IMG/VR virus record: IMGVR_UViG_3300037840_000442
Span: 1 to 28,234 of that record
Strand: one strand, 5' to 3'
Source: a virus
Length of the DNA: 28,234 nucleotides
Position 1 is the first letter of the stretch. Each line of letters opens with the position of its first letter. The notes beneath the pieces are model-generated. The model saw nothing but the letters and a program-made list of their open reading frames with translations, made no database searches and had not been told where the DNA came from. A program made the translations under genes and the position numbers. Shown here one piece after another: positions 6,656 through 28,197 of the stretch.

Positions 6656-6661
6656 GCGGGG

Positions 6662-6798: not shown

Positions 6799-6805
6799 TT
6801 TATGT

Positions 6806-7441: not shown

Positions 7442-7602
7442 TGACGAGGATCGGGTTGTTCATCAGGGAAGCCGTGTTCAGCACTGACGCCCTGACCGGG
7501 GAGAAATGCTGTCCCACCGAGGTGTGCAAGTGCCCGCTGAACCATATCTGCTCCTGCCGTTTCTGCCGGTGCGGCACGTATTACCCGAAAGCCTTCGCGT
7601 GA
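7438..7602 (+). CDS. Very Cys-rich mini-protein (54 aa)
   Basis: Eight Cys residues lie within 24 positions (CCPTEVCKCP then CSCRFCRCG), a density typical of multi-metal clusters. ATG at 7438 is preferred over 7405 because it overlaps the upstream stop (ATGA). A TATACT box inside the upstream gene (7363-7368) could give an extra transcript. Metal binding is likely, function unknown. Confidence 0.65.
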   Translation: MMTRIGLFIREAVFSTDALTGEKCCPTEVCKCPLNHICSCRFCRCGTYYPKAFA

Positions 7603-7925
7603 CGGAGCAAGGCCCGAAAGGCTGGCATGGCCAGCCGTTCGTGGCCCTGGACGGGCAGAACTGGCCCCTGAAGACGGCAGCGGGGCTGCTGGACCTCCCG
7701 GAGCAGGATCTCCGGGACCTGGTCCGGGTGGTCGAGAACCTCCGGGGGGAAGCCCTGTCCGCCGGGGTGATCCGGATTTCCGGGTTCGCCCGGCAGGGCC
7801 GGCAGCCGAAGGCGTATCCTGCCCGGGTACTCATTGCCCTCACTGAGGGCATCCGGGACCTTGCCGAGAGGATCGCGAGTGGAGAACAGGAAGACTGTCC
7901 GGAGGACCATCCTCGCGCAGCCTGA
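7599..7925 (+). CDS. HTH-like hypothetical protein (108 aa)
   Basis: GTG at 7599 overlaps the previous stop (GTGA). Residues 20-60 (WPLKTAAGLLDLPEQDLRDL, then VRVVENLRGEALSAG) read like a winged-helix or MerR-type helix-turn-helix in which a residue pair is recognised before choosing a partner. The C-terminus is acidic. DNA binding is inferred from pattern only. Confidence 0.6.
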   Translation: MTEQGPKGWHGQPFVALDGQNWPLKTAAGLLDLPEQDLRDLVRVVENLRGEALSAGVIRISGFARQGRQPKAYPARVLIALTEGIRDLAERIASGEQEDCPEDHPRAA

Positions 7926-7941
7926 GCACGTCACGGAAGTC

Positions 7942-8220
7942 ATGACCCGGGAATTCACGTGCGATAACGGCTGCGGGGCCGTCATGCCGGAGTATAACAT
8001 GACTGGCGGAGCCCTGGCTTCGCATGACGGGAACCCGTACCGCAACCGGATCGAGGTTTATCTCAACCCGGAGAATTTCAGCGGCCAGGACGGGTACCAG
8101 AAGCTCTCCCGGGACTACTGTGATGAATGCCTCCCGGAGATCTGGAAGGAGATCACGGCGGTTCTCGCCTACCGGCCGCTCCGGACGGGAACCTTGCTAC
8201 GGCGGGAGGAACGCGAGTGA
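7942..8220 (+). CDS. Zinc-ribbon protein (92 aa)
   Basis: FTCDNGCG near the N-terminus and YCDECL about 60 residues later make a split CxxxC/CxxC pair. The middle is beta-rich (RNRIEVYLNPENFSG). ATG at 7942 follows CGGAAG and gives the natural N-terminus; GTG at 7879 would overlap the upstream gene deeply. Stop overlaps the next GTG. Confidence 0.65.
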   Translation: MTREFTCDNGCGAVMPEYNMTGGALASHDGNPYRNRIEVYLNPENFSGQDGYQKLSRDYCDECLPEIWKEITAVLAYRPLRTGTLLRREERE

Positions 8221-8396
8221 TTCATGTCTTCCGGTGGGACCGTACCGCGATTGCGGTTCCGCGAGAAGGCAGGTCCCTGGATCGGAAATTCCGGAAGGGT
8301 GGTGCCTGGATGTGCGTCATGTGCCGGATCCTGCTGGATTTCGCTGTCGCATACGACCTGGATCACTACGATGACTGCCCGGGGGGAGTAGAGTAA
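8217..8396 (+). CDS. Hypothetical protein (59 aa)
   Basis: GTGA overlap with the upstream stop. The chain contains WMCVMCRILLDF, a CxxC in a hydrophobic setting, and an acidic end (DLDHYDDCPGG). The last 80 bases overlap the minus-strand gene 8317-8709. A direct repeat crosses its stop codon. Confidence 0.55.
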   Translation: MIHVFRWDRTAIAVPREGRSLDRKFRKGGAWMCVMCRILLDFAVAYDLDHYDDCPGGVE

Positions 8397-8709
8397 TGAC
8401 TGCCCGGGGAGAGCTGAGCCACGGCTGGGGTGTGCCCCCGTCGTTACGGAACGGGACGGTAGCGGGACGTCGCGGCATTACCGGGAACACGAGACAGGAT
8501 GGTTCCCGGGCCCTGCCCGAGCACCAGCCGCAGACCTCATCCTCGTGATCTTCGAAGACCTCGATGATCTGGCGTATCTCGTCAGGCCCGTGGAACAGGC
8601 TGCACTCTCCGGTACAGTTCTCGTCTTCGCAGCGCGGATGACGAGAACAGTAATGACATTCCTGCATCCTGTCGAAACGTTCCAGGAGCCATTGCGCGGG
8701 AGACTGCAT
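8317..8709 (-). CDS. Cys-rich hypothetical protein (130 aa), leaderless
   Basis: Residues 14-70 hold Cys/His groups (CHYCSRHPRC, CTGECSLFHG, CGWCSG) consistent with one or two zinc sites separated by an acidic helix (DEIRQIIEVFEDHEDE). The C-terminal 60 residues are low-complexity Arg/Pro/Ser and overlap the convergent gene. The third ATG, at 8709, is chosen because the promoter TTGAAA-N17-TATGAT ends seven bases before it. No family recognised. Confidence 0.6.
   Translation of the reverse strand: MQSPAQWLLERFDRMQECHYCSRHPRCEDENCTGECSLFHGPDEIRQIIEVFEDHEDEVCGWCSGRAREPSCLVFPVMPRRPATVPFRNDGGTPQPWLSSPRAVITLLPPGSHRSDPGRMRQRNPAGSGT
8371..8409. repeat. Direct repeat across a stop codon
   Basis: ATGACTGCCCGGGG occurs at 8371-8384 and 8396-8409 (period 25), with the stop codon of the 8217 gene at 8394-8396. 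Confidence 0.8.
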
Positions 8710-8716
8710 GAGGGGC

Positions 8717-8745
8717 ATCATAATCGTTTCCGGCCCCGTTTTCAA
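8717..8745 (-). promoter_or_regulatory. Leaderless-type promoter for the 8317-8709 gene
   Basis: On the minus strand TTGAAA (8745-8740), a 17-bp spacer and TATGAT (8722-8717) form a near-consensus promoter. The start codon at 8709 follows after seven bases. Confidence 0.7.
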
Positions 8746-8769
8746 CCAGGGAGAATCTCTCAGAACCGG

Positions 8770-8806
8770 TTGACAGGGTTGACATCTCATGCCAGGGTGA
8801 TATAAG
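8770..8806 (+). promoter_or_regulatory. Promoter of the lysozyme-like gene
   Basis: Two TTGACA boxes (8770-8775 and 8779-8784) precede TATAAG (8801-8806). The second box has a 16-bp spacer. Transcription would start near 8813 and give an 89-base leader. Confidence 0.7.
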
Positions 8807-8839
8807 TGAGATAAGGACACCTGTCTCTCTCACGAAAAG

Positions 8840-8880
8840 AGCCGCAGGTCTTCCTGTTTTTTTCCCGGAAGATAGCGGCT
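8840..8880 (+). other. Hairpin in the leader of the lysozyme-like gene
   Basis: AGCCGC (8840-8845) pairs with GCGGCT (8875-8880), and TCTTCC (8849-8854) with GGAAGA (8867-8872), around a loop with seven T. A small internal loop separates the two stems. It may control translation or RNA stability. Confidence 0.6.
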
Positions 8881-8901
8881 GCCCTGCGTTTCTAGGAGAG
8901 C

Positions 8902-9510
8902 ATGTTGTCTTCTGGCAGACACGAACGTCCCCGTCACCGCCATCGCAAGCCCGGGTGCGCTAGGCAGACATACCTGGCCGCTGCGAGAACCGGCGTGATC
9001 CTGGCCACCGGAGCCGTTATCCTGACCCCGGCCACCGGAGCCCTCGCGGTTCCCGGGCCGGAGGTCACCGCTGCGGCAGCGATCACCGCTGCGGCAGCGG
9101 TCACCGCTCATCACCGGGACCACCTGCTCCACCTCCGCCACCTGGCCCACCTGCGCCACCTTCTGGACGGGAGGACTGACGGGAGGGCGGCTGCTGCGGT
9201 CCCGTCAGTTCCGTCCGCAAGAGGAGCCCTGGACTGCCGGGAACTGGAGAGCCTCTGGCTCCAGGCCGGCGGCTCGCAGGGCGAGGCGCTCACTGCGGCC
9301 GAGATCGCCATGGCGGAATCCGGCGGCAACCAGTTCGCTACGGGCACGGTCGGCGAGCGCGGGTACTGGCAGATCAACCCGAACCACGGCTCGCTGTCCA
9401 CCTACGACCCGATGGGCAACGCCAAGGCCGCCGTCATCCTCTCGGCCGACGGCACCAACTGGACGCCCTGGACGACGTACACCAGCGGTCTGTACATCGG
9501 CCGCTGCTGA
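8902..9510 (+). CDS. Secreted lysozyme-like / transglycosylase-type protein
   Basis: A basic N-terminus (RHERPRHRHRK) and a hydrophobic stretch (about residues 26-50) suggest a signal peptide or signal anchor. After a low-complexity Ala/His linker, the last 90 residues form a lysozyme-like domain: the Glu in EIAMAESGGNQ is the expected catalytic residue, followed by YWQINPNH and WTPWTTY. It should cut peptidoglycan outside the membrane. The form is typical of host-type secreted actinobacterial enzymes. ATG at 8902 follows TAGGAGAGC. Own promoter, leader hairpin and terminator make it an independent unit. A virion-associated or moron role is possible. Confidence 0.8.
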   Translation: MLSSGRHERPRHRHRKPGCARQTYLAAARTGVILATGAVILTPATGALAVPGPEVTAAAAITAAAAVTAHHRDHLLHLRHLAHLRHLLDGRTDGRAAAAVPSVPSARGALDCRELESLWLQAGGSQGEALTAAEIAMAESGGNQFATGTVGERGYWQINPNHGSLSTYDPMGNAKAAVILSADGTNWTPWTTYTSGLYIGRC

Positions 9511-9519
9511 GAGAATCGA

Positions 9520-9560
9520 CACGAAACCCCCGGGGCGTCAGAGGCGCCGGGGGTTTCGTG
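9520..9560. terminator. Strong bidirectional intrinsic terminator
   Basis: A perfect 14-bp stem (9520-9533 with 9547-9560), flanked by AAA/TTT-containing arms, has a 13-base loop. It lies between the convergent ends of the lysozyme-like gene and the minus-strand operon, 10 bases after one stop codon and 3 bases from the other. Confidence 0.85.
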
Positions 9561-9562
9561 TT

Positions 9563-9676
9563 TCACACCAGGGACATCCGTGCCCCGCAGCAGGCCGGGG
9601 CGCTGCGTGCAGCTTTTACCTTGCAGCATTCCGCGCACGTCCAGATCCTGATGTCAAGCCAGGCCAGCAGCCTCAT
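9563..9676 (-). CDS. Cys-rich mini-protein (37 aa)
   Basis: ATG at 9676 follows GGAGGAG and encodes MRLLAWLDIRIWTCAECCK, then a second pair of Cys (ACCG). Its start overlaps the preceding stop (ATGA). It ends right beside the bidirectional terminator, as expected for the last gene of the operon. One metal site is likely. Confidence 0.6.
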   Translation of the reverse strand: MRLLAWLDIRIWTCAECCKVKAARSAPACCGARMSLV

Positions 9677-9777
9677 GTTGTTCTTCTCCTCCGGTAACTC
9701 TGCCTTCCGGCAACGGGCGGTTTGCGGGGACGTTCCGGCAGGGCCTGCCGTCTCGCTATTTCCGCCTCGATGCTCAG
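9673..9777 (-). CDS. Possible small basic protein with a CTG start (34 aa)
   Basis: An open frame between two supported genes encodes a helical, Arg-rich peptide (IEAEIARRQALPERPRKPP). It has no ATG, GTG or TTG start outside the upstream gene. A CTG at 9777 overlaps the upstream stop (CTGA), mirroring the GTGA/ATGA pattern nearby, and its stop overlaps the next ATG. A CTG start is rare, so this may be non-coding. Confidence 0.35.
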   Translation of the reverse strand: MSIEAEIARRQALPERPRKPPVAGRQSYRRRRTT

Positions 9778-10148
9778 CTTCTCGACAGGAATGATATAAG
9801 GCGGTACTCCGGGCAGTCCCCCGGGGTAATCCGCCTGCCGAGGATCTTCCCGCAGTACATGCAGTATTCCTGGTGATAACAATGCCAGGCTATCTCGTAA
9901 TGCCCGTCTTGCCAGGCGAGCCACCAGCCGCAGGAGCGGATCGTGTTCCAGATCGGGTGGATTTTCCGGAGGGCCGGCTGGTACGGTTCTTTCCACCGTC
10001 GGCCTTTGCACATGTCTTTCGGTGCCGGAGCGCGTTTTGCCGGGCTCGGATCCTCGGCCAGGGCTTCCCGGAGCAAGTCACCCCGGGAACGCTGCGGCTC
10101 GGGCCAGGAGGCGCGGTTCCCCGGCCGGGCGTGCCGTTCGGCCAGCAC
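9774..10148 (-). CDS. Hypothetical protein with C-terminal zinc site (124 aa)
   Basis: The N-terminal part is Arg/Pro/Ala-rich. Residues 68-112 look folded, with Trp, His and Cys (GWWLAWQDGHYEIAWHC, YCMYCGK) and a CPEY ending. GTG at 10148 follows AAGGAG with good spacing. It diverges from terL with only 26 bases between start codons. Likely metal binding, function unknown. Confidence 0.65.
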   Translation of the reverse strand: MLAERHARPGNRASWPEPQRSRGDLLREALAEDPSPAKRAPAPKDMCKGRRWKEPYQPALRKIHPIWNTIRSCGWWLAWQDGHYEIAWHCYHQEYCMYCGKILGRRITPGDCPEYRLISFLSRS

Positions 10149-10174
10149 TTGTCTCCTTCTAGTCCTAGGAGTAT

Positions 10175-11845
10175 GTGGATCTTAGCAAGCTCAGCCCGGA
10201 AGCGCAAACCAGGATCGCCCGCGAGATCCTGGCCCTGAAGACGGTACCGCGTGCCTGGGAAGACCAGGCGTACTACAAGCAGCTGCCCCCTGATCATCCC
10301 CGGCATCATCTTGCCGATCCCGTGACCGGGCTGGCCTGCGGCTGTGCCGGGATGGACCTGGAGTGGGAGACCTGGCTCCTGGTGACGGGGAGGGGGACGG
10401 GGAAAACCAGGTGCGGGGCCAACTGGGCGCTCACCGTCGGGCTTTCCGAGCCGGATATCTGGGTCGGGGTCTGCGCGCCGACGTTCATCGACATCAAGCG
10501 CGTCTGCTTCGAGGGCCCGTCCGGGATCGAGAAAGTAGCCGAGAAAGGCGAGATCCGCGAGTACAACAAGAACGGGCTGCGGTTCACCCTCCGGAACGGC
10601 AGCGTGATCCAGGGGTATACGGCAGACCGTCCCGACTCCATCCGGGGCGCGAACCTGGCGTATGTCTGGTTTGACGAGCTGGGATCCATCCGCGCTCCCG
10701 ATTTCTATCACTTCGGCTTGCTTCCCGCGTTGCGCGAGAGCAAGGGCCGGATGCTGGTGACAACCACCCCGAGGAATGTCGGGATCATCGGCAGCCTGAT
10801 CAAGGACGCCAAGGACCCCGCCAAGCACGTGCATTACACCAGGGCGACGTCCATGGAGAACTGGAAGTCGCCGTCGGTCCTGAAGATGGTAGAGAAGGTC
10901 AAGCGCCAGTACGGGCTGGATTCATTCCTCGGGAGGCAGGAGCTGCTCGGCGAGCTGGTGGATGACCTCCCGGGCCAGCTCTTCCGTATCCAGGATATCG
11001 ATAAGTACCGGGTGGATGAATTCCCGTCCCTGCGGCGGACGATCGTTGCCGTGGACCCGGCGAGCAGCGCCAATATGCGCAGTGACGAGACCGGGATCGT
11101 CGTCGTCGGCGAAGGGGAGGACCGGCATTACTACACCCTGCAGGACGTATCCATGCAGGCCACCACCGATAAGGTCATGTCCGCTATTGTCGGCGCTTTC
11201 TACCGGTGGGAAGCGGACATCGTGGTGGTGGAGAAGAACGTGGCGGGAGACTGGTTCCGGCAGGCCCTGTATGACAAGGACCCGCACGTGTCTTATAAGC
11301 CCGTGCAGGCCATGAAGGGCAAGCTGATCCGGGCCCAGCCGCTGTCCCCGCTGATGGAGCGGGGCTTCTTCCACATGGTCGGGAGGGAATTCGATGAGCT
11401 GGAGCGCCAGCTGACCGCGATGACCGCGTACGACGACCGGGTCAAGCAGCATGACGACCGGGCAGACGCCTGGGTGTGGGGCATGCGGGAGCTGTCCGGG
11501 ATGGGCAACGTGGACTGGGGGGAGATCTACGGTTTCCGCACCTGCCTGGCCTGCGGGCATAAGGTCAACATCCGGCTGGAGAAATCGTGCCGGGCCTGCG
11601 GCAACCCGGTGGAACCTGATTCTGAGCCGAAAGAGAAGAACACGACGCGCTCGGTCCGCTGGTCTAATGCGTACCAGAAGACCTGCGAGCAGGGGCACGA
11701 GTATCCGATGCGGCTGCCTCGCTGCCCGAAATGCCATGACGACCAGGAATACCTGGCGCGGGTTTCCGGGTTGACTAATCCTTCCCGTGGCTCGCGTTCT
11801 GTGTATACTGGCAGGGACCCTCTTTCCAGGAGAAATCATGTGTAA
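10175..11845 (+). CDS. terL: Terminase large subunit (TerL)
   Basis: The ATPase-nuclease motor that packages phage DNA. Walker A is GRGTGKT (72-78); Walker B ends in the acidic pair D167-E168 (YVWFDE); the coupling motif is TTTPR (196-200). Nuclease acidic residues are D294 (VAVDPASS), E353 (VVVEKN) and D431 (DDRADAW). After residue 450 a C-terminal extension carries zinc-ribbon groups: CLACG and CRACG, then C...CPKC. GTG at 10175 follows AGGAG. No small subunit is recognised in the window. The 3' end contains the promoter of the next gene. Confidence 0.95.
   Translation: MDLSKLSPEAQTRIAREILALKTVPRAWEDQAYYKQLPPDHPRHHLADPVTGLACGCAGMDLEWETWLLVTGRGTGKTRCGANWALTVGLSEPDIWVGVCAPTFIDIKRVCFEGPSGIEKVAEKGEIREYNKNGLRFTLRNGSVIQGYTADRPDSIRGANLAYVWFDELGSIRAPDFYHFGLLPALRESKGRMLVTTTPRNVGIIGSLIKDAKDPAKHVHYTRATSMENWKSPSVLKMVEKVKRQYGLDSFLGRQELLGELVDDLPGQLFRIQDIDKYRVDEFPSLRRTIVAVDPASSANMRSDETGIVVVGEGEDRHYYTLQDVSMQATTDKVMSAIVGAFYRWEADIVVVEKNVAGDWFRQALYDKDPHVSYKPVQAMKGKLIRAQPLSPLMERGFFHMVGREFDELERQLTAMTAYDDRVKQHDDRADAWVWGMRELSGMGNVDWGEIYGFRTCLACGHKVNIRLEKSCRACGNPVEPDSEPKEKNTTRSVRWSNAYQKTCEQGHEYPMRLPRCPKCHDDQEYLARVSGLTNPSRGSRSVYTGRDPLSRRNHV
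11804..11809 (+). promoter_or_regulatory. Candidate -10 box inside the 3' end of terL
   Basis: TATACT is 29 bases before the ATG at 11838, which would give a leader of about 22 bases with AGGAGAAATC. The best -35-like TTGACT (11771-11776) is too far away (27-bp spacer). Confidence 0.4.
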
Positions 11846-15740: not shown

Positions 15741-17924
15741 GTGTCCTGGAATGAACTCCAGTCCGCCTCGTTTACGCAGCCCTCCGCCGCAGGTACCGTA
15801 GCCGTGACGTACGGCAGCAACGTCTCCTCCGGGACGAAGCTGATCGCGGCTGTCTCCATCCCGACGACCGCTGCCAGCAGCCCCATCTCATCCGTCAAGG
15901 ACGGCGCGGGCAACAACCTCACCCTGATCAAGGCTGTCACCGGGAGTTCCGGCGGCAGCAGCCAGGTCGCGCTCTACGCGATGGACACCCCGGCCGGCGA
16001 TGTCGGGACCAAGCCGACGATCACGGTCACCTGGACCGGGACTTTCACGACCGGCTCGCTGCTGATCAAGGAAGTCTCCGGGCTCCTCGCCGGCAACACC
16101 ACCGCGATGGCCGACGGCATCCCGGCGGGCGTCCAGGAAACCCCGAGTGCGTCCCAGGCGCAGCCCGCGTACAGCAGCACCACCGCCGGCGAATACCTGG
16201 TCTCCATCCTCGGCGACAACGGCAACAGCGTCACCTGGGCGCTGTCCGGGTACTCGCTTGACGTCAACAGCGTCCAGGGCAGCGCTGACGCTGACATCAT
16301 CCTCGGGTCCAAGAACTCCACGGGCGGCGCTGAGACCGGGACGTGGACGACCGGGGGCACCCCGACCGGCTCCGGGCTGATCGTCGTCGCGTTCAAGCTG
16401 GCACCAGCGGTGGTTCCGTATACGAGAACTATCCCGCCGGGAAGAATGTCCCCGGGTGCATGGGGCGAGCTGGCCACGAGCTGGCAGAGTGTCGCCACCT
16501 CGGTCACCTACCCGCAGACCCTGGGCGGCTCGGTCAATGTCTCCGGGAGTACGGCAGAGGGGACAGGCAAGATCCTGCCTGGTTCCGTGAACGTCTCCGG
16601 GACGATCCTGAGACAATCAGGGAAGATCTTCGCAGGCACGGTGAACGTCACGGGCACCCTGACCCGCAGCATCCAGAGAATCCTCAGCACCTCAGCCAGC
16701 GTGACAGCGGCACTGCTCGCGAGCTTCATCCACGCCTTGCACTTGAGCGTCCCCGTGAACCTTCCCGGGACCTTGGTCCGCACTCCCGGGAAGCTGCTGG
16801 CCGCGACGGTTAACGTCACGGGTTCGGTGGCACGTGGTCTTGGCAAGATTCTCCCGTCCTCGGTGAACCTGACAGGGACCGTCACCAGGAATCTCGGCAA
16901 GATCCTCCTTTCCTCGGTGAACCTGGCCGGCACCCTCACCAAGGGCAAGCTGGTTACCCTGGCCGCGAGCGTCAATGTCGCAGGCAGCCTGATACGCATC
17001 CTCGGGAAAATCCTTCCCGGATTAGTAAATGTCACCGGGACTCTCGTGCGCACTTCCGGGAAGTTCCTTTCAGCGGCGGTGAATGTCACCGGGGGGATGG
17101 TCAGGCAGGCAGGGAAAACCCTGCCTGCGACGGTGAACCTCGCAAGTACGCTTGCCCTGATCAAGATCAAGCTGCTGACGCTGGCAGCGGCAGTGAATAT
17201 CAGTGCCATGCAGAAGATCACTGCAGGTAAGCTCCTCGCCGGCACGGCAAATATCACCGGAGTGCTCGTTAACCAGGCAGGCAAGCACCTTGCTGCGGCT
17301 GTCAGCATTCCCGGGACCCTGGCCAGGCAGGCAGGGAAGATTCTTGCTGCCGCAGTTAACCTGACCGGGGCTCTTGCGGTCGTCAAGGTCAAGATCCTTG
17401 CCCTGGCGGCGGCAGTGAATGTCACCGGGACGCTGAAAGTGAGCACCGGCAAGATCTTCTCCGTCTCGGTAAGCGTGTCTTCTGCTATCAGCAGGAGCCT
17501 GGGGAAGATCTTTTCTTCCGCTGTCCAGGTGACCGGCAGCCTGACCCGGAATACAGGGAAGCTCCTGTCCGGGACCGTGCGGGCGAGCGGCGGCATCACC
17601 GCCCTGAAGGTGTCCCTGCTCACCTTGACGGCGGCAGTCCGCGTCACCGCGTCCCAGTCGGTGCGCATCAGCAAGGCCGTCACCGCGCAGGTGGCCGCAG
17701 CAGCGTCCCAGGGCGTCCGTATCGGCAGGAACCTGGCTGCTACGGTGCACGTCACCGCAACGGCAGTAAGGGCGCGTGCCGTCGTCCTGACGGCAGCAGT
17801 GAAGACGGCTGCCTCGGTCGTGGCGAATGTCACCCACCCGGTGGGGCTGCTCATCTTCAAGCTCGGGCTCCCCGCGAAGCGATGGATCACGGGGACGATC
17901 AAGAAGAACTGGCGGATCCCGTGA
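15741..17924 (+). CDS. 727-residue protein with an 18-residue repeat, virion fibre-like
   Basis: Residues 1-220 form a beta-rich domain of the type seen in actinophage tail proteins (YLVSILGDNGNSVTW, VVAFKLAP). From about residue 265 to 705 the chain repeats every 18 residues with consensus GKxLxxxVNVTGTLxRxx. Several insertions of the form LTLAAAVN give intermediate units. Alternating hydrophobic residues suggest a beta solenoid. The last 25 residues (LGLPAKRWITGTIKKNWRIP) abut the next gene by GTGA overlap. Virion surface or fibre role is inferred. Confidence 0.7.
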   Translation: MSWNELQSASFTQPSAAGTVAVTYGSNVSSGTKLIAAVSIPTTAASSPISSVKDGAGNNLTLIKAVTGSSGGSSQVALYAMDTPAGDVGTKPTITVTWTGTFTTGSLLIKEVSGLLAGNTTAMADGIPAGVQETPSASQAQPAYSSTTAGEYLVSILGDNGNSVTWALSGYSLDVNSVQGSADADIILGSKNSTGGAETGTWTTGGTPTGSGLIVVAFKLAPAVVPYTRTIPPGRMSPGAWGELATSWQSVATSVTYPQTLGGSVNVSGSTAEGTGKILPGSVNVSGTILRQSGKIFAGTVNVTGTLTRSIQRILSTSASVTAALLASFIHALHLSVPVNLPGTLVRTPGKLLAATVNVTGSVARGLGKILPSSVNLTGTVTRNLGKILLSSVNLAGTLTKGKLVTLAASVNVAGSLIRILGKILPGLVNVTGTLVRTSGKFLSAAVNVTGGMVRQAGKTLPATVNLASTLALIKIKLLTLAAAVNISAMQKITAGKLLAGTANITGVLVNQAGKHLAAAVSIPGTLARQAGKILAAAVNLTGALAVVKVKILALAAAVNVTGTLKVSTGKIFSVSVSVSSAISRSLGKIFSSAVQVTGSLTRNTGKLLSGTVRASGGITALKVSLLTLTAAVRVTASQSVRISKAVTAQVAAAASQGVRIGRNLAATVHVTATAVRARAVVLTAAVKTAASVVANVTHPVGLLIFKLGLPAKRWITGTIKKNWRIP

Positions 17925-18331
17925 TCTCCACCGAATGGGTAACAGGGGATGCATTCACTAACTGGTCATCCGACCTTGCCTGGACGGAGTGGACTGTGGG
18001 CTTCGAGACGATAGGCCTGAATCACCTGTCCACGGAGTATGTCCTCATTCCCGTATCCGCGACCAAGGCGGGTTCTCCTTATAACCCGACGGGCGATGTC
18101 GTGCAGTTCGCGTTCATGCCGACCGTCATCCAGGTTCCCCAGTCTGGTGACTGGATGACGGGGAGCTGGGACAGCGACCCGGGCAATTTCATCTATCCTT
18201 ACCAGGCAAAATGTCTTGTAGGACCAGCCGGAACAGTTACTCTCGGGATCGGCACCTATATTATCTACATCCGTATTCAGGACAATCCAGAGGTGCCAGT
18301 TTTGGTAGCCGGACAGGTCCAGATCTCATGA
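17921..18331 (+). CDS. Structural-region protein (136 aa)
   Basis: GTG at 17921 overlaps the previous stop. It begins VISTEWVTGDAFTNWSS and contains STEYVLIPV, GDWMTGSW and DNPEVPVLVAGQ, a beta-sandwich-like pattern typical of small proteins near portal genes in actinophages. A head-tail or baseplate-like role is possible. Its stop overlaps the next ATG. Confidence 0.65.
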   Translation: MISTEWVTGDAFTNWSSDLAWTEWTVGFETIGLNHLSTEYVLIPVSATKAGSPYNPTGDVVQFAFMPTVIQVPQSGDWMTGSWDSDPGNFIYPYQAKCLVGPAGTVTLGIGTYIIYIRIQDNPEVPVLVAGQVQIS

Positions 18332-18460: not shown

Positions 18461-18832
18461 ATGGCCACCGAGATCCCGTTCAGGGTTATCCGGAATTCCC
18501 TGTACATCAAAGCCGGGGCAGCCGGGCAGCCATGCCTGTTCATCCTGGACACCGGGGACGCTATCGGCCCGGTCTTCAACTCCGCCGACGCGGAGCGCCT
18601 GGACCTGAAAGCCACGGGCGTCATCGGGGTGTCCGGGGCAGGCGGCGCTACCGAGAATTACGGGACCGAGACGGACATCATGCTAGGCGACCTGACTTTC
18701 CAGGGGGAGCCGGGTGCCATTGACCCGTACCTGCAGGGACCTTCCCTGCTCGGGCTTCCTTTCTTCCTGGGAAAGGCCCGGTTGCTCACTTTCGACTTCA
18801 CTCGCGGTATTCTCGCGATCGAGCCAAAGTAA
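18461..18832 (+). CDS. Retropepsin-like aspartic protease (123 aa)
   Basis: The N-terminal half has hydrophobic residues followed by the catalytic triad motif LFILDTGDAI (DTG at about residues 31-33), a flexible Gly-rich flap (GVSGAGGATENYG), and the C-terminal signature SLLGLPFF and LLTFDFTRGIL. This fits single-domain clan AA proteases, which work as dimers. Length matches. ATG at 18461 follows GGAGG. It lies directly upstream of the portal gene, so maturation cleavage of head proteins is a natural hypothesis. Confidence 0.8.
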   Translation: MATEIPFRVIRNSLYIKAGAAGQPCLFILDTGDAIGPVFNSADAERLDLKATGVIGVSGAGGATENYGTETDIMLGDLTFQGEPGAIDPYLQGPSLLGLPFFLGKARLLTFDFTRGILAIEPK

Positions 18833-18841: not shown

Positions 18842-21800
18842 TTGGCTCACCCGGCGGCTGTCGTCGCGGCCCTCAAAGCTCTTCCCGGAGTGACCCGGCC
18901 TGCGGGCATGGCCCGGGTGTCCCCGGAGATGTTTATCCCCGGCCCCGGGTACGGGGCTATCTACGGGAATAACCTGCCCCGGGACCCCCGGATCTTCACC
19001 GATGGCGCATTTGCTCCCTCGGCGCCGATCTTCCCCACTCCGGTCGACCAGCCTGAGTATCCCGGGGGACTGCCGGGTCCCCGGTGGTGGCAGCCGCGAG
19101 TGGGCTGGAACCTGCCCACTCCCCCGGGCACCGAGGGTTTGAAGCTCGCGTGCTACCAGGGTGCGACAACTGAGATCCTGACCAGGCGTGGCTGGTTGCT
19201 ATTCCCGGAACTGGATGACAGCGACGAGGTTGCTACCCGTAATCCCGTTACGAAAGCGTTCGAATGGCAGAAGCCTGGTGCTCGTCACGCCTATGCTTAC
19301 GATGGAGAACTTATCCGCTTCCTGAGCAGGGGTATTGATCTTCTAGTTACCCCCAACCACCGGATTCTGCACACTTCCGGTCACGGGAAACATTGCGGCG
19401 AACTCATCAAGCGTGCCGACGAGTGTGAACTGCTACGCAGCGGCGCGATGATCGCTACCAGTAAATGGGATGCGCCCGATCTTGACAGGTGGAAGGTTCC
19501 TTCCTGCCTGGAGCATGGTTATATCCATGTAGATACTAAGACTCTCCGGTGCGCCCGTGAGCAGCTTGGCTGGTCCCGTGAACAACTAGCAAGCAAGGCA
19601 GCGACTACTGCTAGTGCAATTTGTGTCATGGAAACGGGAACCGGCAAGATGCACCTTGCCACCTTGAATCGTGTGAGAACAGTCTGCGGTCTTCTCGGGA
19701 TTGACGGAGAATCAGTCATCCGTCCCGGGTGGCTGACCGAGATGTCCGGGGATGATTTCGCTGCCTTCATGGGTGCCTATCTGTCCGGAGGATGCACTTC
19801 GGGAACCCGGATTTTCATCGCACAGATGCCCTATTCCAAAGGTTTCGAGCCGTTCCGGTCTCTCTTGACCCGCATACTCGGATATGAACCCTGTTATGAC
19901 GGCAAGTCCTGGACTTTCGGTCATGAGGGACTTGCGCTGTACCTGCGAGGCTGCGGAAAATCCGCTCCCGAGAAGAAAATCCCCCAGGATATCCTGGAAC
20001 TTTCCACTAGGCAGCTCCGCATTTTCTGGGATTTCTATGTTCTCGGTGACGGCTGGACCTATAAGACTGGGCAGGCTATTACTACAACCAGCCGTGTTCT
20101 TGCCGGTCAGCTTCAAGAAGTTGCCCAGAAGATCGGACTGTCTGCAACGGTAAAAAGCCATGAAGTTCAGCCTGGCGGTGTTATCCGGGGTCGCCTGATC
20201 AGTAATACTCATACTCGTTACGACATTTTCCTGCGCACGACCAAGTGCCCGAGGTGGACTTCGGTCGAGCGCGTGGAATACGAGGGAACCGTCTACTGCG
20301 TGAGCGTGCCGAACGGTATCATCTATGTGCGCCGGAACGGGAAAGCAATCTGGTCCGGGAACAGCTTCGATAATCTCGCTACGCTGAGTAAGCGCTACTC
20401 GGTGGCCCGTGCCTGCCTGGAAATCCGGGTCGAGGAAATCCGGGCACTGGAGTGGGATATCACCCTGACCACCGACGCCGCCAAGGCATACCAGGGTGAC
20501 CGGAACGCCATGCGGGATTTCGGCGAGCGCAAGGCAGAGGCGCGGCGGTTCTTCCGCCGCCCGGACCCGGACTTCTTCTCCTTTGATCATTTCCTGAATG
20601 CGTTCCTGGAGGAGATTTTCGTCTTTGACGCGCTCGCCCTGGTTTTCCGGCCGAAGTTCGGCGCGGCCTTCGGCATGGGCGGCCGGGGCCTGCTCGGCAG
20701 TAACCTGGATAGCCTCAACCTGGTTTCAGGGCCTACCGTACGGCCTTTGGTCGGATTGCACGGAGAGATTCCCCTGCCGCCCTCGCCGGCTTACCAGCAG
20801 TTCCTTTTCGGGGTACCCCGCAGTGATTACATGACAATCGCCTCCGGCGCGGACCTGGACGAGACGGGGCTGCGGGGAACGGAGATCGGGGAATACGGCA
20901 GCGATGTCATGCTGTACGCCCCGTACTGGCGTACCAGGGAATCCCCGTATGGTTTCCCGCCGATCGAGCGGGCACTGCTTCCCATTATCTCGGGACTGCA
21001 GAAGCAGGAATACCAGCTCGATTACTTCCAGGAAGGGACAATCCCGGCAGTCTATATCAGCCCCGGGGACCCGAACATCTCCCCGCAGCAGGTCGGGGAA
21101 CTCCAGAATGCGCTGAACTCCCTGGCCGGGGACCCCGCGTACCACCTGAAGGTGGTCGTGCTGCCGCCAGGATCCAAGGTGGATCCGCAGCGCCCGGTGG
21201 ACCTGAGCGACTCCTTTGACTACCTGGTCATGAACCAGGTGCTGATGGCGTTCGACTGCCAGCCGACCGAGCTGGGCATTATTCCCGATATCGGGCAGAC
21301 GGCCGCCGGCCCGGGAGCCTCGTCGGTCCGGTTCGCAGGCCAGCAGAAGCGTGACATCAAGTCCCGGGTCAGTGCCAAGCCGCTGCTCAAGTGGATCTGC
21401 GATATCTTCAACTACGTTTTGCAGGACATCTGCGGCCAGCGTGATATGCAGTTCCAGTTCGAGGGCCTGGTGGACGATGAGGACAAGGCAGCTATCACCG
21501 AACTCGGCGTCCAGCAGATCCAGAACGGGATGGCGTCTATTGACGAGGTCCGGGAACGCCTGGACCTTCCTCCCTGGGGCATTCCGGAGACATCCGAGCC
21601 CGTGCTGTTCACGGCCCAGGGTGCTATCCCGCTCTCGATGTCCACGGAGCTGATCCGGTCGGCAATCCAGGGCAACATCACGGCCGGCCAGGGGACGAAC
21701 TCGGGACAGAAGAAGAAGGCTCAGCCCTCGATCCGCCGGGGCGGTGTGACCCGGCCGAACGGGTCGCATCCGGCCCCGGTCGCACCGCACCGCGAGCCGG

Positions 21801-23836
21801 TCGGCACCCCGCAGCATGCCGCCGCTGCCGCGTCTATCCAGTCGCCTACGCCGCGAACGGGCGGCTCGGCGGCCCGCACCCCGGTGGCCGGCAGCCGGAA
21901 GAAGAACCCTGCGGACAGCCGCCGGACCATTTCCGGCAAGGCTGCCGTATCGGAACTTGAGTCCCTGAAGCGGCATCTCCGCAAGGGCCGGGAGATCACG
22001 ACCTGGAAACCAGAGCATATCACTAACGGCATTCTCGGGGTGATCGCGGAGGACATGGCCAAGGGCGTGCTCATCGATATCGCGGTGGCCCGGGCCCAGG
22101 CGCTTCTTCTTGCCAAGAACCGGCAGGAAGAGAACCGCGAGTTCACCGAGGATGAGCCGCATCTTTCCAGCATTTCCGGGGATGATGCTGATCCAGGCAC
22201 TTCCGGAGATGATGCTGATCCAGGCATGGATGACGGCGATCCGGGAGAAGGCAGTGAAGAAGACGAAGACGACAAAGACGAAGAAGACAATGACCAGCAT
22301 CTCCTGAACTTGACGAAAAGGCGCCAGTTTCCCGGGTGGGAGCATGACCTGCGTCTTATTGAAAACTCCCGGGGTGACATTTCCCAGGCCTTCCTGCGAG
22401 CGGCAGAGAAAAGCGCTGGCCTGCGCAAGAAGGTAGCGACGGGACAGATGTTCGTTTCCGCTATCGTGCTCAAGGGCCTGATCAGCGATACTATCCGTGA
22501 TGTCTTCACTGACGTGATGACCCTTATGTGGACGAAAGCATGGAATCTGGGATATGAGTCAGCAGAATCTCTCGTCACCGGCCGGGATCCCGACTTTGAG
22601 CGCAAGCATGAGGGTGATTCTCTCCAGGGGTTCCTGGGAACCGAGGGCCAGCACTGGCTGGATCAGGTCAGCCGCACTGGCCTCGGCGGCGCCCCGGCCC
22701 GCTCGGACGCGATTGCACGGACCGAGGTTGCCCGCGCGGTGAATGCCGCCGTTATCCAGTGCTACCGGGATAACGGGGTCCAGTATAAGCACTGGATTAT
22801 TTCCCCGGATGAGAAAACCTGCAAGACTTGCAGGTCTGCTGTTAAAGAAGGTATAATCCCCCTTGACAGTATATTCCCTAATTCCGGTCTGGCCGGCCCG
22901 CTGCATGTCTCGTGCCGTTGCACGGTCGCCCCGGCGGGCATGAACCCGGAACCGGTGCTGGCCCATCTGGGCAAGCGGTTCATCACGACGGGCGAGGCTC
23001 GCCAGAAGGCGCGCGAAGACCCTTCCCGGCTCGGCTGGCTGCTGCTGCGCGCGAAAGACGAGGACGGGAAATACCGCTTCCTGCTCCAGCAGCGCAGCGA
23101 AGGCACCTGGGGCATGCCGGGCGGGACTCTTCACGCCGGGGAAGCGCCCTGGGACGGGGCCCTTCGTGAGACCACCGAGGAAATCGGGGACCTGCCGGAC
23201 CTGACCCCCTCCGGGGAATTCCATCACATGGAAGATGACGGGAAAACCCAGGTTTACCTGTACCTGTGCGATGTTCCTTACTTCCAGCCGAAGTTCAACG
23301 GAGACACCCCGGAGGAAACTCAGGGTGCCGCCTGGTTCCGGAAAAAGGAAATCGGCGAGCTGAACCTGACCCCGAAGTTCCGGGAAGACTGGGAAAAAGG
23401 CATCAAGCTCAAGGATAACGTTTCCAAGGCCATGGACCGGCGTGATACCGGCGAGATTCTCACCAGCCCGCAGCAGAACCCGCAAGGTTCCGGGTCGCGG
23501 TGGAACTACCCGCACGACGGCGACGGGACGGAGACCCTGCCCTGCCGCTGCGGTCACGGGACGGGGCAGCATGAATGCCGTCCTGACAGCCTGACCTGCC
23601 AGTGGTGCGGCTGCCCCGAGAGAACTTATCCCCTCGGCGCCCTCCGGCCCGGCGGCGGCCAGGCTCCCGGGGAGATGGGCGCCACGGAGCCCCCGTCCTG
23701 GGATATGCCGCAGTCCCGGATCTACTCCGGCGGAGATGACGGCGCTTTCGGCAGGACCGGGGGGGTGCCGCCTTCGGCCGGAAGGTTTCCCCGGCAGGGC
23801 CGGGAGCTGCAGGACCGGCATCCGGTGACCACGTGA
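18842..23836 (+). CDS. Portal-MuF-NUDIX fusion polyprotein interrupted by an intein
   Basis: Residues 1-103 and 508 to about 960 are portal protein (typical segments ARACLEIRVEEIRALEW, YGFPPIERALL, the MNQVLMAFD region). An intein occupies 104-507. A linker with two 9-residue acidic repeats follows. A SPP1-gp7/Mu-gpF-like minor head domain spans about 1160-1365 (ARTEVARAVNAA, CKTCRSA, GPLHVSCRC). A NUDIX hydrolase is at about 1395-1520, with nudix box pattern GTLHAGE...RETTEEIGD near 1425. A final zinc finger (CRCGHGTGQHEC, CQWCGC) is at about 1567-1593. TTG at 18842 is the start, behind AAGGA. The portal is the DNA channel; MuF assists head assembly; the nucleotide-hydrolase role is unclear. 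Confidence 0.9.
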   Translation: MAHPAAVVAALKALPGVTRPAGMARVSPEMFIPGPGYGAIYGNNLPRDPRIFTDGAFAPSAPIFPTPVDQPEYPGGLPGPRWWQPRVGWNLPTPPGTEGLKLACYQGATTEILTRRGWLLFPELDDSDEVATRNPVTKAFEWQKPGARHAYAYDGELIRFLSRGIDLLVTPNHRILHTSGHGKHCGELIKRADECELLRSGAMIATSKWDAPDLDRWKVPSCLEHGYIHVDTKTLRCAREQLGWSREQLASKAATTASAICVMETGTGKMHLATLNRVRTVCGLLGIDGESVIRPGWLTEMSGDDFAAFMGAYLSGGCTSGTRIFIAQMPYSKGFEPFRSLLTRILGYEPCYDGKSWTFGHEGLALYLRGCGKSAPEKKIPQDILELSTRQLRIFWDFYVLGDGWTYKTGQAITTTSRVLAGQLQEVAQKIGLSATVKSHEVQPGGVIRGRLISNTHTRYDIFLRTTKCPRWTSVERVEYEGTVYCVSVPNGIIYVRRNGKAIWSGNSFDNLATLSKRYSVARACLEIRVEEIRALEWDITLTTDAAKAYQGDRNAMRDFGERKAEARRFFRRPDPDFFSFDHFLNAFLEEIFVFDALALVFRPKFGAAFGMGGRGLLGSNLDSLNLVSGPTVRPLVGLHGEIPLPPSPAYQQFLFGVPRSDYMTIASGADLDETGLRGTEIGEYGSDVMLYAPYWRTRESPYGFPPIERALLPIISGLQKQEYQLDYFQEGTIPAVYISPGDPNISPQQVGELQNALNSLAGDPAYHLKVVVLPPGSKVDPQRPVDLSDSFDYLVMNQVLMAFDCQPTELGIIPDIGQTAAGPGASSVRFAGQQKRDIKSRVSAKPLLKWICDIFNYVLQDICGQRDMQFQFEGLVDDEDKAAITELGVQQIQNGMASIDEVRERLDLPPWGIPETSEPVLFTAQGAIPLSMSTELIRSAIQGNITAGQGTNSGQKKKAQPSIRRGGVTRPNGSHPAPVAPHREPVGTPQHAAAAASIQSPTPRTGGSAARTPVAGSRKKNPADSRRTISGKAAVSELESLKRHLRKGREITTWKPEHITNGILGVIAEDMAKGVLIDIAVARAQALLLAKNRQEENREFTEDEPHLSSISGDDADPGTSGDDADPGMDDGDPGEGSEEDEDDKDEEDNDQHLLNLTKRRQFPGWEHDLRLIENSRGDISQAFLRAAEKSAGLRKKVATGQMFVSAIVLKGLISDTIRDVFTDVMTLMWTKAWNLGYESAESLVTGRDPDFERKHEGDSLQGFLGTEGQHWLDQVSRTGLGGAPARSDAIARTEVARAVNAAVIQCYRDNGVQYKHWIISPDEKTCKTCRSAVKEGIIPLDSIFPNSGLAGPLHVSCRCTVAPAGMNPEPVLAHLGKRFITTGEARQKAREDPSRLGWLLLRAKDEDGKYRFLLQQRSEGTWGMPGGTLHAGEAPWDGALRETTEEIGDLPDLTPSGEFHHMEDDGKTQVYLYLCDVPYFQPKFNGDTPEETQGAAWFRKKEIGELNLTPKFREDWEKGIKLKDNVSKAMDRRDTGEILTSPQQNPQGSGSRWNYPHDGDGTETLPCRCGHGTGQHECRPDSLTCQWCGCPERTYPLGALRPGGGQAPGEMGATEPPSWDMPQSRIYSGGDDGAFGRTGGVPPSAGRFPRQGRELQDRHPVTT
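19151..20362 (+). other. Intein (404 aa) inside the portal sequence
   Basis: Cys1 begins CYQGATTEILT (block A), TPNH lies in block B, and the C-terminal part VYCVSVPNGIIYVRRNGK, then WSGN, is followed by Ser of the extein (SFDNLATL). Extein residues LKLA and SFDN join in frame. A XRE-like HTH lies at about polyprotein residues 231-287, and LAGLIDADG-like motifs at FMGAYLSGG and FWDFYVLGDG. The penultimate His is replaced by Gly (SGN), and motif 1 lacks its acidic residue. G+C is lower than in the exteins. Confidence 0.9.
22174..22226 (+). repeat. 27-bp-period tandem repeat in the acidic linker
   Basis: A 26-bp near-identical unit starts at 22174 and 22201 (period 27, one mismatch), encoding two SGDDADPG units in the linker between portal and MuF domains. 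Confidence 0.85.
22828..22857 (+). promoter_or_regulatory. Internal promoter-like site in the MuF region
   Basis: TTGCAG (22828-22833), an 18-bp spacer and a perfect TATAAT (22852-22857), with A+T-rich codons not typical of the gene. An in-frame ATG at 22940 marks the MuF/NUDIX boundary. A separate NUDIX transcript is possible but unproven. Confidence 0.35.
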
Positions 23837-23872: not shown

Positions 23873-24184
23873 GTGAAGTTTGCCGAATTCCAGGAGCTGT
23901 GCCGGAAGGAATGGCAAGAATATCACGGCGATATTCATACCCTGTGGCTGACCGAGGAGTCTTACCGGGAGCTGAATACCGAAGCCATCCTGGCCCGGGA
24001 GCTGCATTCCGTGGACTTGCAGGTGCACGAGGACTTCCGGGACCGCGCTCCGGGACGCCCTGTTATCGGCACCCTCCGGAACCCGGTAACGAAGAGCCCG
24101 GTGAGAATGAAGCTGTGCCGGGACCGGGACGTCGCGGACATCTACAACGGGAACACCCGGCAGCTGTTCACGAAAGTCCTGTGA
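23873..24184 (+). CDS. Hypothetical protein (103 aa)
   Basis: It begins MKFAEFQELCRKEWQEYHGD, with a mixed alpha/beta sequence and a conserved-looking C-terminal segment (RDVADIYNGNTRQLFTKVL). GTG at 23873 follows GGAGCC. A GTG at 23833 overlaps the portal stop, but that frame becomes unlikely after 13 codons. Its position suggests a head accessory, no motif recognised. Confidence 0.6.
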   Translation: MKFAEFQELCRKEWQEYHGDIHTLWLTEESYRELNTEAILARELHSVDLQVHEDFRDRAPGRPVIGTLRNPVTKSPVRMKLCRDRDVADIYNGNTRQLFTKVL

Positions 24185-24199: not shown

Positions 24200-24877
24200 A
24201 TGGATCTCCTGAATCCTTTCCTGCCTAAAGGGCCGGTCGAGGACCACGCGTACGGTAATCCTATCCCGGCGCATGTCGTCTACCTGAAGATGGCCAGCAA
24301 CTTCCCGCCGGAAGCCATCCAGTGGGTGAACCGGGCCACCTGGGAAGGACCCCTGGATATCGCCTGGGACAATATCGACACCGATAACGTGAACGGCTGG
24401 GCGGCTTCCCGCCAGCCGGAGAAAGTCCAGGATTTCGAACAGCAGATCCAGGCACACGACGGCAACGTCGAGCCATCCATCCTGATCAAGGATGATGACA
24501 GCCCGAAATCCATCATCATCGACGGCCATCACCGTGCCATTGCACGGCATAACCTGGAGCGCCCGATCCTTGGCTATGTGGGCCGCATTAACCCGGCCGA
24601 CCGCAAGGCTGCCCTGGAGACGCATACGAAGCAGGTCCACCAGGGCACAGACCCGCAGAACAAGGTATCCGTGAACCAGCTCCTGGATGCCCTGGATACT
24701 TTCTGGTATTACCGCGAGATCGGGCATCCGGTGAACCGCCGGGAAATCTTCAAGGCGCTGGCTGCCCTCCGGGACGCAGGCCGGGCCGAATTCTTCCTGG
24801 AGCGGGAGGCGGCGCAGTTTGGCTGGACTCTCGGCCAGCTGGACAGTCCTTACCTCCGGTCCTGGCTATGTGACTGA
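24200..24877 (+). CDS. ParB/sulfiredoxin-fold protein (225 aa)
   Basis: The core has ILIKDDDSPKSIIIDGHHRA and LERPILGYVGRI, the ParB-N/Srx pattern (D-G-H-H-R) of an NTP- or phosphate-binding fold. A helical C-terminal part (about 150-225) follows. In phages such domains occur next to MuF proteins and are thought to act in head assembly or as nucleases. ATG at 24200 follows AAAGGAGG. The 3' end lies in a 27-bp duplication. Confidence 0.75.
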   Translation: MDLLNPFLPKGPVEDHAYGNPIPAHVVYLKMASNFPPEAIQWVNRATWEGPLDIAWDNIDTDNVNGWAASRQPEKVQDFEQQIQAHDGNVEPSILIKDDDSPKSIIIDGHHRAIARHNLERPILGYVGRINPADRKAALETHTKQVHQGTDPQNKVSVNQLLDALDTFWYYREIGHPVNRREIFKALAALRDAGRAEFFLEREAAQFGWTLGQLDSPYLRSWLCD

Positions 24878-25485: not shown

Positions 25486-28197
25486 GTGGCAACCGTCCTC
25501 ACCGAGTCTTCTGCTCCGGAAGAGCTGGCCCGTTTCTCGTTCCCCATCCTGAAGTGGGACCAGGACGAAGACGGTGACCTGGTCGTCAAGGGCATCGCCA
25601 CGGACGGCACGGTAGACAGCGACTCCCAGATCGTGGACCCGGAGTGGAGCGCCAAGGCGCTCTCGGACTGGATTGCCACCGGAGGGAACGTCCGGCAGAG
25701 TCACGACCCGCACCGTCCTGTCGGCAAGGGACTGCGGATTGACGTGAACCGCGACAACTCCGGGAAGCACTGGGTGACCTCCGTCATCGTGGATCCCGTA
25801 GCCCAGCGGCTGGTCAAGAAGGGCGTGCTCACCGCCTACTCCGTCGGCATCTCCCGCCCGGTCATCAAGCATGATCTTTCCGGGAAGGCTCGCGGTGGCA
25901 TCATCGTCGGCGGCGAGCTGGCCGAGCTGTCCATTGTCGACCGCCCGAGCAACAAGTCCTCGTACCTGGAACTGGCCAAGTCTGCCGCCAACGGCGAGTG
26001 TGAGTTCGTCGGCAAGGTTGTCACCGGCACCGACGCCGAGAAGGCGCTGAGCGAGGCTCCTAAGGATATCTCGTCTTTTGCCGCCGACGATGAACTGTTC
26101 TCCTTTACCCCGAAGGACATGGCTCGCGTCATTAAGGAGAAGATCATCCAGCGGCATTACCGCGAGCTGGCCTCGGATGCGGCCTCCGGGTATGACCCGT
26201 ACCGTTACTCGGCTGTCGGCAAGCGTGACTTCGACCGGGGTGTCGGCGGCGGAGTAGATCGCGACCAGCTTTCCGATTCGGATTTCGCCGGGCCGCACCG
26301 CAGTTTCCCGGTCGTGAACCAGTCGGATGTTTCCGACGCCCTCGGACTGGCCGGGCATGCCGCCAACCCGGATGAGGTTCGCGCCAACATCAAGGCTATC
26401 GCCCGGAGGAAGGGGCTCAGTGTTCCTGACGACGCCAAGGAAGATACGCCGGACCTGGTAAAGGACCCGGGGAATGTCCCGGCCGGGACTGAGGGAGATG
26501 CTGCCAGCGCCACTCCCGGACGCGAGCTTCCTGATCCGCAGAACCTGGATGCTGACGGTGACACTGACGGTGACGGGGTAGTTGACTGCATTCCCAAGGC
26601 GGACACGCCTAAGCCGAAGAAGGGCAAGAAGGGCGGCAAGAAGGGCGGCAAGCTGCCGCCCTGGCTGAACCAGCCGGCCGAGAAGTTCACGGACCCGAAG
26701 TCGGCCAGCGGTGCCGAGGAAGCGGCCGACATGGACTCAGCTCCTTTGCCGGGAATGCTGGAATCCCCGGCTAAGGACTTCATGAAGGCAGCCGAGTCGG
26801 TGGCCTTGCGGTACAAGACCGTGGGCATCGACTTCGACCTGGGCGTCCTGCACGACCTGACCTGCCCGGCCTTCTCCCCGGAGGAGGTGGCGAAATTCCA
26901 CCCGCACGCTACCCTCCCGTCGGTCATCGACGTGGACATGTGGCAGCGCAAGGCGCTGACGGCAGCCGTCGGCCGGTCCATTGACGAGGCCATCCAGGCT
27001 CAGCAGGCCTGGCAGGCCGCAGCCTGCCTGAAGGCGGCCGACCAGGCCGACCTGGCTGCCTACCGGGCCGGGCTGCACAAGGCGTTCCGGGATGCGAACC
27101 CCGGGCCGACCAGCTTCCCGTCCCCGGGCACGCTGTCCCCGAAGCAGTTCAACCGCCCGTGCCTGACGGACGGGCATGCTCAGGACTCCCCGGGCTACGG
27201 TCCTCCCAATTCGGCTCCCAGTGTCGCGTCCACCGCGCCGAACGCGCATAGCTTCAACCGGCCGCCGCTGTCCTCGGGCCAGCAGAGCCCTTCTCCGAGT
27301 TTCATGAAGGCCGATTACCCGTATCCGGAGCGCCAGGGTGTTCCCACCCGCGTGGATTACCCGGAAATCGAGCGGGAAAAGGCCCGCCAGGCCCTGTCTG
27401 CGCTGCACGATCACATCAATCACATGTTCCCCTCATCCTGCCCGATGCTGGACCAGGATCCCTACCGGGTTGAGCAGCCGATCCCGGCGCCGGCCGCTGT
27501 TGGCCTGGCCAAGAGCGAGCCGGACGAAGTTGTCCTCGGGGACGTCTACAAGTACATCGCCAAGCTGGAGAAGCGGGTCCGGGCGGGCCTGATCACCGAG
27601 GCGCAGGCCCGGGACAAGCTGTCCAAGAGGACGGCGCGCAAGTACGCGGAATCCCTGTCCGAGCAGGTGAGCAAGGGCCTCACCTCCAAGAGCGAGATCT
27701 TGCGGGCACTCGGCATCGCCGAGCCCGAGGTAGTCAAGGCAGAGTTTGCCGCGCCTTTCGCCAGGATCATTCCTGCCGGTTCCGAGGACGGGCAGGCCGT
27801 CACCAAGGGGTTCAGCCCAGAGGTGATGAAGACGATGATGTCGGAGATTCTCCAGCCTTTCCAGGAGAAGATCACGGCGCAGGAGAACATGATTACCGAA
27901 AGCCAGCGGAATGCGGAGGCTCTGCAGCGGCTGGTCGCCGAGCAGCAGAACCACCTCAGCGAGTACGACCGGCGCTGGGAGGCGCTGGCGAACAGCGCCG
28001 ATCCTTCCACCGCCCCGTTTGCTGCGCTGGCACTCCGGAAGGCGGCCCCGGCGGGTGCTGCCAAGTCCGATACCTCTGAGCGGGCTCAGGGAATGATTGT
28101 ACACCAGCTTGAGCGGATGTCGCGCCTGAGTGAGAATCCCGTGGAACGGGAAGCTGCTTATGCCGCCCTCAAGAAGATCCAGAATCCTCTTCAGTAA
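25486..28197 (+). CDS. Prohead protease (XkdF/S78-like) with long scaffold-like tail
   Basis: Residues 1-160 match phage prohead proteases: H73 in RQSHDP, S119 in LTAYSVGI and the acidic segment ELAELSIVDRPSN. The remaining 740 residues include ALGLAGHAANPDEVRANIKA, an acidic Asp/Gly repeat (DADGDTDGDG), a Lys/Gly stretch (KKGKKGGKKGG), Pro-rich linkers and a C-terminal coiled coil (about 780-860). Such a fusion fits a protease joined to a head scaffold that is cut during maturation. GTG at 25486 follows GGGAGATAT. Well over twice the length of usual relatives. Confidence 0.85.
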   Translation: MATVLTESSAPEELARFSFPILKWDQDEDGDLVVKGIATDGTVDSDSQIVDPEWSAKALSDWIATGGNVRQSHDPHRPVGKGLRIDVNRDNSGKHWVTSVIVDPVAQRLVKKGVLTAYSVGISRPVIKHDLSGKARGGIIVGGELAELSIVDRPSNKSSYLELAKSAANGECEFVGKVVTGTDAEKALSEAPKDISSFAADDELFSFTPKDMARVIKEKIIQRHYRELASDAASGYDPYRYSAVGKRDFDRGVGGGVDRDQLSDSDFAGPHRSFPVVNQSDVSDALGLAGHAANPDEVRANIKAIARRKGLSVPDDAKEDTPDLVKDPGNVPAGTEGDAASATPGRELPDPQNLDADGDTDGDGVVDCIPKADTPKPKKGKKGGKKGGKLPPWLNQPAEKFTDPKSASGAEEAADMDSAPLPGMLESPAKDFMKAAESVALRYKTVGIDFDLGVLHDLTCPAFSPEEVAKFHPHATLPSVIDVDMWQRKALTAAVGRSIDEAIQAQQAWQAAACLKAADQADLAAYRAGLHKAFRDANPGPTSFPSPGTLSPKQFNRPCLTDGHAQDSPGYGPPNSAPSVASTAPNAHSFNRPPLSSGQQSPSPSFMKADYPYPERQGVPTRVDYPEIEREKARQALSALHDHINHMFPSSCPMLDQDPYRVEQPIPAPAAVGLAKSEPDEVVLGDVYKYIAKLEKRVRAGLITEAQARDKLSKRTARKYAESLSEQVSKGLTSKSEILRALGIAEPEVVKAEFAAPFARIIPAGSEDGQAVTKGFSPEVMKTMMSEILQPFQEKITAQENMITESQRNAEALQRLVAEQQNHLSEYDRRWEALANSADPSTAPFAALALRKAAPAGAAKSDTSERAQGMIVHQLERMSRLSENPVEREAAYAALKKIQNPLQ

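Follow-up and report, generated by a model that had tools for sequence, protein, structure and literature searches.

The genome of a soil phage, represented by a 28 kb virus record (the window, i.e., the whole stretch of 28,234 nucleotides that was analysed), contains one continuous frame in which Pfam, PHROGs and NCBIfam scans place a portal protein, a MuF head domain and a NUDIX domain in this order. Judging from the sequences of its relatives, the fusion is conserved, widespread and under purifying selection, and the NUDIX domain is probably catalytically competent, as its sequence and modelled fold indicate. The reading that we favour, giving it slightly less than an even chance, is that the portal–MuF head protein carries this domain as a cargo whose targets are nucleotide metabolites or defence signals, at the head or at genome entry. 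The fusion and its neighbours comprise the following features:

10175..11845, + strand: terminase large subunit, upstream of the fusion (PHROG 38, E 2e-28)
17882..18331, + strand: upstream neighbour, function unassigned (48–71% identity in closer relatives)
18842..23836, + strand: whole fusion frame of 1664 codons, starting with TTG; 1260 aa predicted after splicing
18842..19150, + strand: N-terminal extension and portal start (N-extein, residues 1–103); 52–58% identity to intein-free relatives
19151..20362, + strand: intein, residues 104–507 (404 aa), splitting the portal
20363..21691, + strand: portal core (C-extein, residues 508–950); PHROG 2662, E 1.5e-43; 70–77% identity to relatives
22166..22294, + strand: acidic linker between portal and MuF; tandem 27-base repeats, variable in relatives
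22619..22945, + strand: MuF (SPP1 gp7-type) domain, residues about 1260–1368; PF04233 at 1283–1362, TIGR01641
23027..23422, + strand: NUDIX domain, residues 1396–1527; PF00293, AlphaFold model, invariant catalytic residues
23543..23614, + strand: Cys/His cluster CRCGHGTGQHECRPDSLTCQWCGC ("zinc finger"), residues 1568–1591, from direct reading
23873..24184, + strand: small gene, 103 codons, downstream of the fusion and ahead of the ParB-like gene; from the ORF list
24200..24877, + strand: ParB/sulfiredoxin-like gene (DGHHRAIAR); 42–57% identity to the C-terminal domain of relatives
25486..28197, + strand: head-maturation-protease-like gene (N-terminal part), 903 aa, downstream of the fusion and conserved in relatives (PHROG 9427, E 1e-7; PHROG 21715, E 4e-15)

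Composition of the frame and the portal intein

An earlier sequence-only reading had described a single frame with a portal, a Mu-gpF/SPP1-gp7-type head domain, an acidic repeat linker and a complete nudix box. All of these were recovered, whereas the intein of 404 residues that splits the portal had been missed. The TTG start of the uninterrupted frame aligns with GTG or ATG starts of the relatives. The portal is assigned by PHROG 2662; its PF04860 match (E 1.2e-8, 35 bits) is below the cut-off of 39.1 in the window and exceeds it in the relatives L009 and L011 (L numbers denote the IMG/VR loci compared). The MuF match to PF04233 is above the cut-off (E 1.6e-8, 35.7 bits vs. 29.6). A start codon at the MuF–NUDIX boundary, which could yield a free NUDIX, is not conserved among the aligned relatives on inspection by eye, and this candidate was rejected.

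Two genes upstream of the fusion can be noted. A 727-aa protein (15741–17924) consists of repeats that resemble GKILPGSVNVSGTLVR and matched no family; L009 has a related repeat protein. Immediately upstream of the fusion lies a 123-aa gene (18461–18832) reading FILDTGD..., which by eye resembles a retropepsin-type aspartyl protease. Since it has no match in the related loci compared, it was set aside as a fusion-processing enzyme. A blastn search of the window against isolated phages gave zero matches, and the genome collection, in which a host was sought, contains no relatives of the window's own group.

The insert in the portal has the parts of an intein: Cys1, a block B TPNH, an HTH, two LAGLIDADG motifs and ...SGN ahead of Ser+1; Pfam matches to HTH and LAGLIDADG fall within the portal region. 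In eight close aligned relatives that lack the insert, the sequence is LKL[AC]/SF[DE]QL, whereas the window reads LKLA/C...SGN/SFDN (the slash marks a junction). The intein-free relatives are joined exactly at the predicted splice points, which identifies residues 104–507 as an intein. The splice residues are C104, N507 and S508, with Gly in place of His at the penultimate position, as in most related inteins. Excision, as predicted from these residues, would give a product of 1260 aa.

The first LAGLIDADG motif reads LSGG in the window vs. LSEG or LAEG in all 15 aligned relatives. Because Gly replaces the Glu of this motif, so that the homing acids are not both present, the endonuclease of the window intein is probably dead; splicing need not suffer from this. 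Related inteins were found in 15 distant portals, at other portal positions, with 45–51% identity over the endonuclease part. Across all loci, at least seven insertion sites occur in portals of this group, which on this sequence comparison are an intein hot spot:

LKLA/S: window
VAQMC/C: L016; L156 (from the C-terminal join)
xxDG/T and similar: most intein-bearing loci
LLNAN/T: L018, L019
YFTEG/T: L076
TPYGF/S: L077
before CMAFDVQP: L080

The intein-bearing loci besides the window are L013–L031, L076, L077, L080 and L156. L016 has two inteins in one protein, and only some inteins of this portal group have an HTH domain.

The NUDIX domain, its distribution and the C-terminal end

The NUDIX domain matches PF00293 with E 2.5e-14 (53.8 bits vs. 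a cut-off of 21.1), a significant match. The box in the window is G1428-x5-E1434-x7-R1442 E1443-xx-E1446 E1447-x-G1449; compared with GX5EX7REUXEEXGU, the catalytic G, E, R, E, E and E are present, while T and D stand at the two hydrophobic U positions. In 30 aligned NUDIX sequences with 25–81% identity to the window, drawn from both groups described below, L30, P42, G43, G44, E50, A56, R58, E59, E62, E63 and W114 (alignment numbering) are invariant. The AlphaFold model (mean pLDDT 88) has the alpha/beta/alpha NUDIX fold, and a Foldseek search with it gave 6uuf with E 2.8e-8 and probability 1.00. RenU of M. smegmatis is the first structure match, and the matches are scattered over RenU, RppH, Ap4A hydrolase, NrtR and NudC; with such a spread over several kinds of NUDIX, the substrate is not decidable from sequence or fold.

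When the window is compared with L011, the NUDIX is the most constrained domain, with 82% identity and dN/dS of 0.15 vs. 57% and 0.44 for MuF, ratios that are rough because synonymous sites are near saturation. In the pair L007–L010, NUDIX and MuF are alike in constraint.

Scanning IMG/VR yielded 31 relatives when the window protein was the query and 45 loci when it was the window-group alignment. NUDIX follows MuF in one frame in 51 related loci (37 distinct without exact duplicates), which are not independent phages, since some of them are overlapping stretches of one contig. Domain models built here assigned 41 loci to portal–MuF–NUDIX–ParB and six to portal–MuF–NUDIX; split and intein-bearing forms were also found. 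A more distant IMG/VR group comprises 227 loci, and among the best 80 of these, at least 48 (about 50) have the order portal–NUDIX–MuF, in a set biased to NUDIX carriers because the query contained NUDIX. An alignment across both groups was too divergent to serve as a search query. The portal–NUDIX–MuF order is also present in prophages of Streptomyces, Kitasatospora, Catenulispora and Subtercola genomes. On the NUDIX tree, the MuF–NUDIX and NUDIX–MuF groups form separate clades, and a single origin of both is compatible with the AU test (p 0.44).

A 2H phosphoesterase, likewise an enzyme that works on phosphorylated ends of nucleotides, occupies the NUDIX slot in L014, L018, L139, L146, L147, L150, L151 and L159 and stands beside NUDIX in L075, L077 and L138. 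In L013, the C-terminal part of a MuF protein (5234–6727) weakly matches an ATLF-type metallopeptidase (E 0.02).

The same domain order was thus met elsewhere as far as portal–MuF–NUDIX is concerned, but the final zinc finger that the sequence-only reading placed behind it did not hold up. The Cys/His cluster has no family match in Pfam, PHROGs or NCBIfam, a recognised zinc-binding family included, and it is a small insert missing from all nine aligned close relatives. By this alignment, a zinc finger does not belong to the fusion design in general. A similar CxCGx(n)H knuckle occurs in L040, L049 and L063, but in the MuF–NUDIX linker.

In most relatives, the frame continues past NUDIX into a DGHHRA domain with a ParB/sulfiredoxin fold, whereas the ParB-like part is a separate gene in the window, and in L009 too. 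The fold is that of the ParB/sulfiredoxin superfamily (PadC, ParB, Srx) for both the fused domain and the separate gene, by weak matches (best E 3e-3). The small gene that precedes the ParB-like gene in the window was not matched by tblastn in any of the related loci compared; the start of a gene downstream in L053, at 9953, resembles it (MKLAEFKALCDREW). A Cys-rich tail or gene, CGNCxMxHP...CDLV...CxRW, adjoins the ParB-like domain in L011 (end of the ORF 5989–10338), L057 (9233–9706) and L069 (ORF end), and by eye it resembles an iron–sulphur (HiPIP-type) motif.

Possible roles of the fused NUDIX

In the reading that we favour, the intein would splice out to leave a portal of 1260 residues. 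In portals, the sequence past the core is expected to lie toward the capsid interior, so that MuF and NUDIX would sit within the head, close to the portal vertex. A portal dodecamer might then bear up to twelve MuF–NUDIX arms at this vertex, most likely directed toward the capsid interior. In the head, or in the cell during genome entry, the NUDIX would hydrolyse a nucleoside-diphosphate-linked compound, the candidates being ADP-ribose, an NAD-like compound, a dinucleoside polyphosphate or a defence-signal nucleotide. Since the fusion exists, is conserved and probably retains NUDIX activity, it is reasonable to expect this enzyme in the head or on it. Release speaks against this reading, since the NUDIX is covalently part of the portal and cannot leave with the DNA unless it is cut free.

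A serious rival to the cargo reading, if on balance an unlikely one, is that the NUDIX acts in the infected cell, late or on the procapsid before the head closes, clearing oxidised dNTPs, Ap4A or ADP-ribose, and is then trapped in the head. The fusion lies among structural genes, between the terminase and head-protease genes, and is therefore presumably made late. MutT-like structures are among the fold matches, and on this reading the covalent fusion to the portal requires no release. On the other hand, a cytosolic role needs no portal fusion, and NUDIX or 2H domains are paired repeatedly with portal or MuF in distant lineages and in different orders, which favours a role that depends on place.

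It is improbable that the NUDIX is a structural or ligand-sensing module, like NrtR, whose catalysis is irrelevant to the phage. Its location in a structural protein and the presence of an NrtR–ADP-ribose complex among the fold matches would agree with this, but the catalytic acids are invariant over the 30 sequences, despite identities as low as 25%, and binding alone would not require that.

We give an equally small chance to a scheme in which the head protease cuts the linkers at Lys-Ser/Ala sites and the freed MuF, NUDIX and ParB-like pieces are ejected together with the DNA. A protease-like gene follows the fusion, and LGK[S/A] recurs in the otherwise variable MuF–NUDIX linker of the window's group and flanks the inserted 2H module of L075 on both sides. 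The pattern [VLI]xK[SA] occurs in linkers more often than in shuffled sequences; however, this motif was selected post hoc, and after thinning to 50% identity it is clear only at the NUDIX>MuF (22 of 23) and 2H>MuF (six of six) boundaries. In the Arthrobacter phages Mufasa8 and Sonali, the NUDIX>MuF motif falls in an apparent helix (LAKAxRREL), and the window itself has LGKR, not LGK[SA], ahead of NUDIX. Such a shared protease site, a weak motif confounded by a likely helix, was not relied on.

That the fusion results from misassembly of the contig or from a frame error, conceivable for a virus record without a cultured source, can practically be discounted: it is refuted by dozens of other contigs and isolated genomes in which the fusion stays in frame and is under purifying selection.

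A broader extension of the cargo reading is rather doubtful: in a wide actinophage group, the portal might carry an exchangeable NUDIX/2H kit, often with a ParB/sulfiredoxin domain, that erases host nucleotide signals at entry, and might at the same time be a multi-site intein target. In any case, the fusion is a defined, conserved and testable instance of an enzyme built into the portal through which DNA enters. Packaging of this enzyme, as well as erasure of NAD/ADP-ribose or oligonucleotide defence signals at infection, become directly askable.

Comparison with known systems

Among the closest known systems are gp3 of Mufasa8, annotated as a MutT/NUDIX hydrolase, and gp3 of Sonali. Like the window protein, they unite portal, NUDIX and MuF in one protein and adjoin the terminase; unlike it, they have NUDIX between portal and MuF, not behind MuF, lack the intein and the ParB-like part, and show about 25% identity over the portal. 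The phage group has cultured relatives in these two phages, as well as Streptomyces prophages. The portal of Burkholderia phage Bcep1 (gp18, NP_944326) likewise has a C-terminal NUDIX, annotated as NUDIX-like, but its head morphogenesis protein is encoded by a separate gene. The Bcep1 domain clusters with that of gp4 of Klebsiella phage Chronis, not with the window. A literature search for work on the portal–NUDIX of Bcep781 found none, and another such search turned up no experimental study of a phage NUDIX in counter-defence.

An intein within a phage portal, as in the window, is present in mycobacteriophages of cluster C1 (PMC5050341), whereas the portal group compared here has by itself at least the seven sites given above, an unusually rich collection.

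Published surveys (PMC9503650, 2022; PMC5512222, 2017) cover fusions in which a NUDIX or 2H domain is attached to MuF, to the portal or to the capsid protease. They propose that both types of enzyme, when fused to MuF or portal, are packaged in the head and injected, with ADP-ribose or oligonucleotide signals as the targets. That NUDIX and 2H replace each other at the same position in the sequences compared here agrees with this proposal. The NUDIX joined to portal–MuF that the sequence-only reading singled out is thus real and conserved, minus a general zinc finger and plus an overlooked intein, and it belongs to a kind of fusion already described in PMC9503650, where NUDIX is joined to MuF, portal and capsid protease. 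The portal–MuF–NUDIX–ParB lineage and its intein are not described in the available portions of either survey. What is added here is a conserved portal–MuF–NUDIX(–ParB) lineage, an exactly delimited intein, the interchange between NUDIX and 2H inside a single portal group, and the many intein sites.
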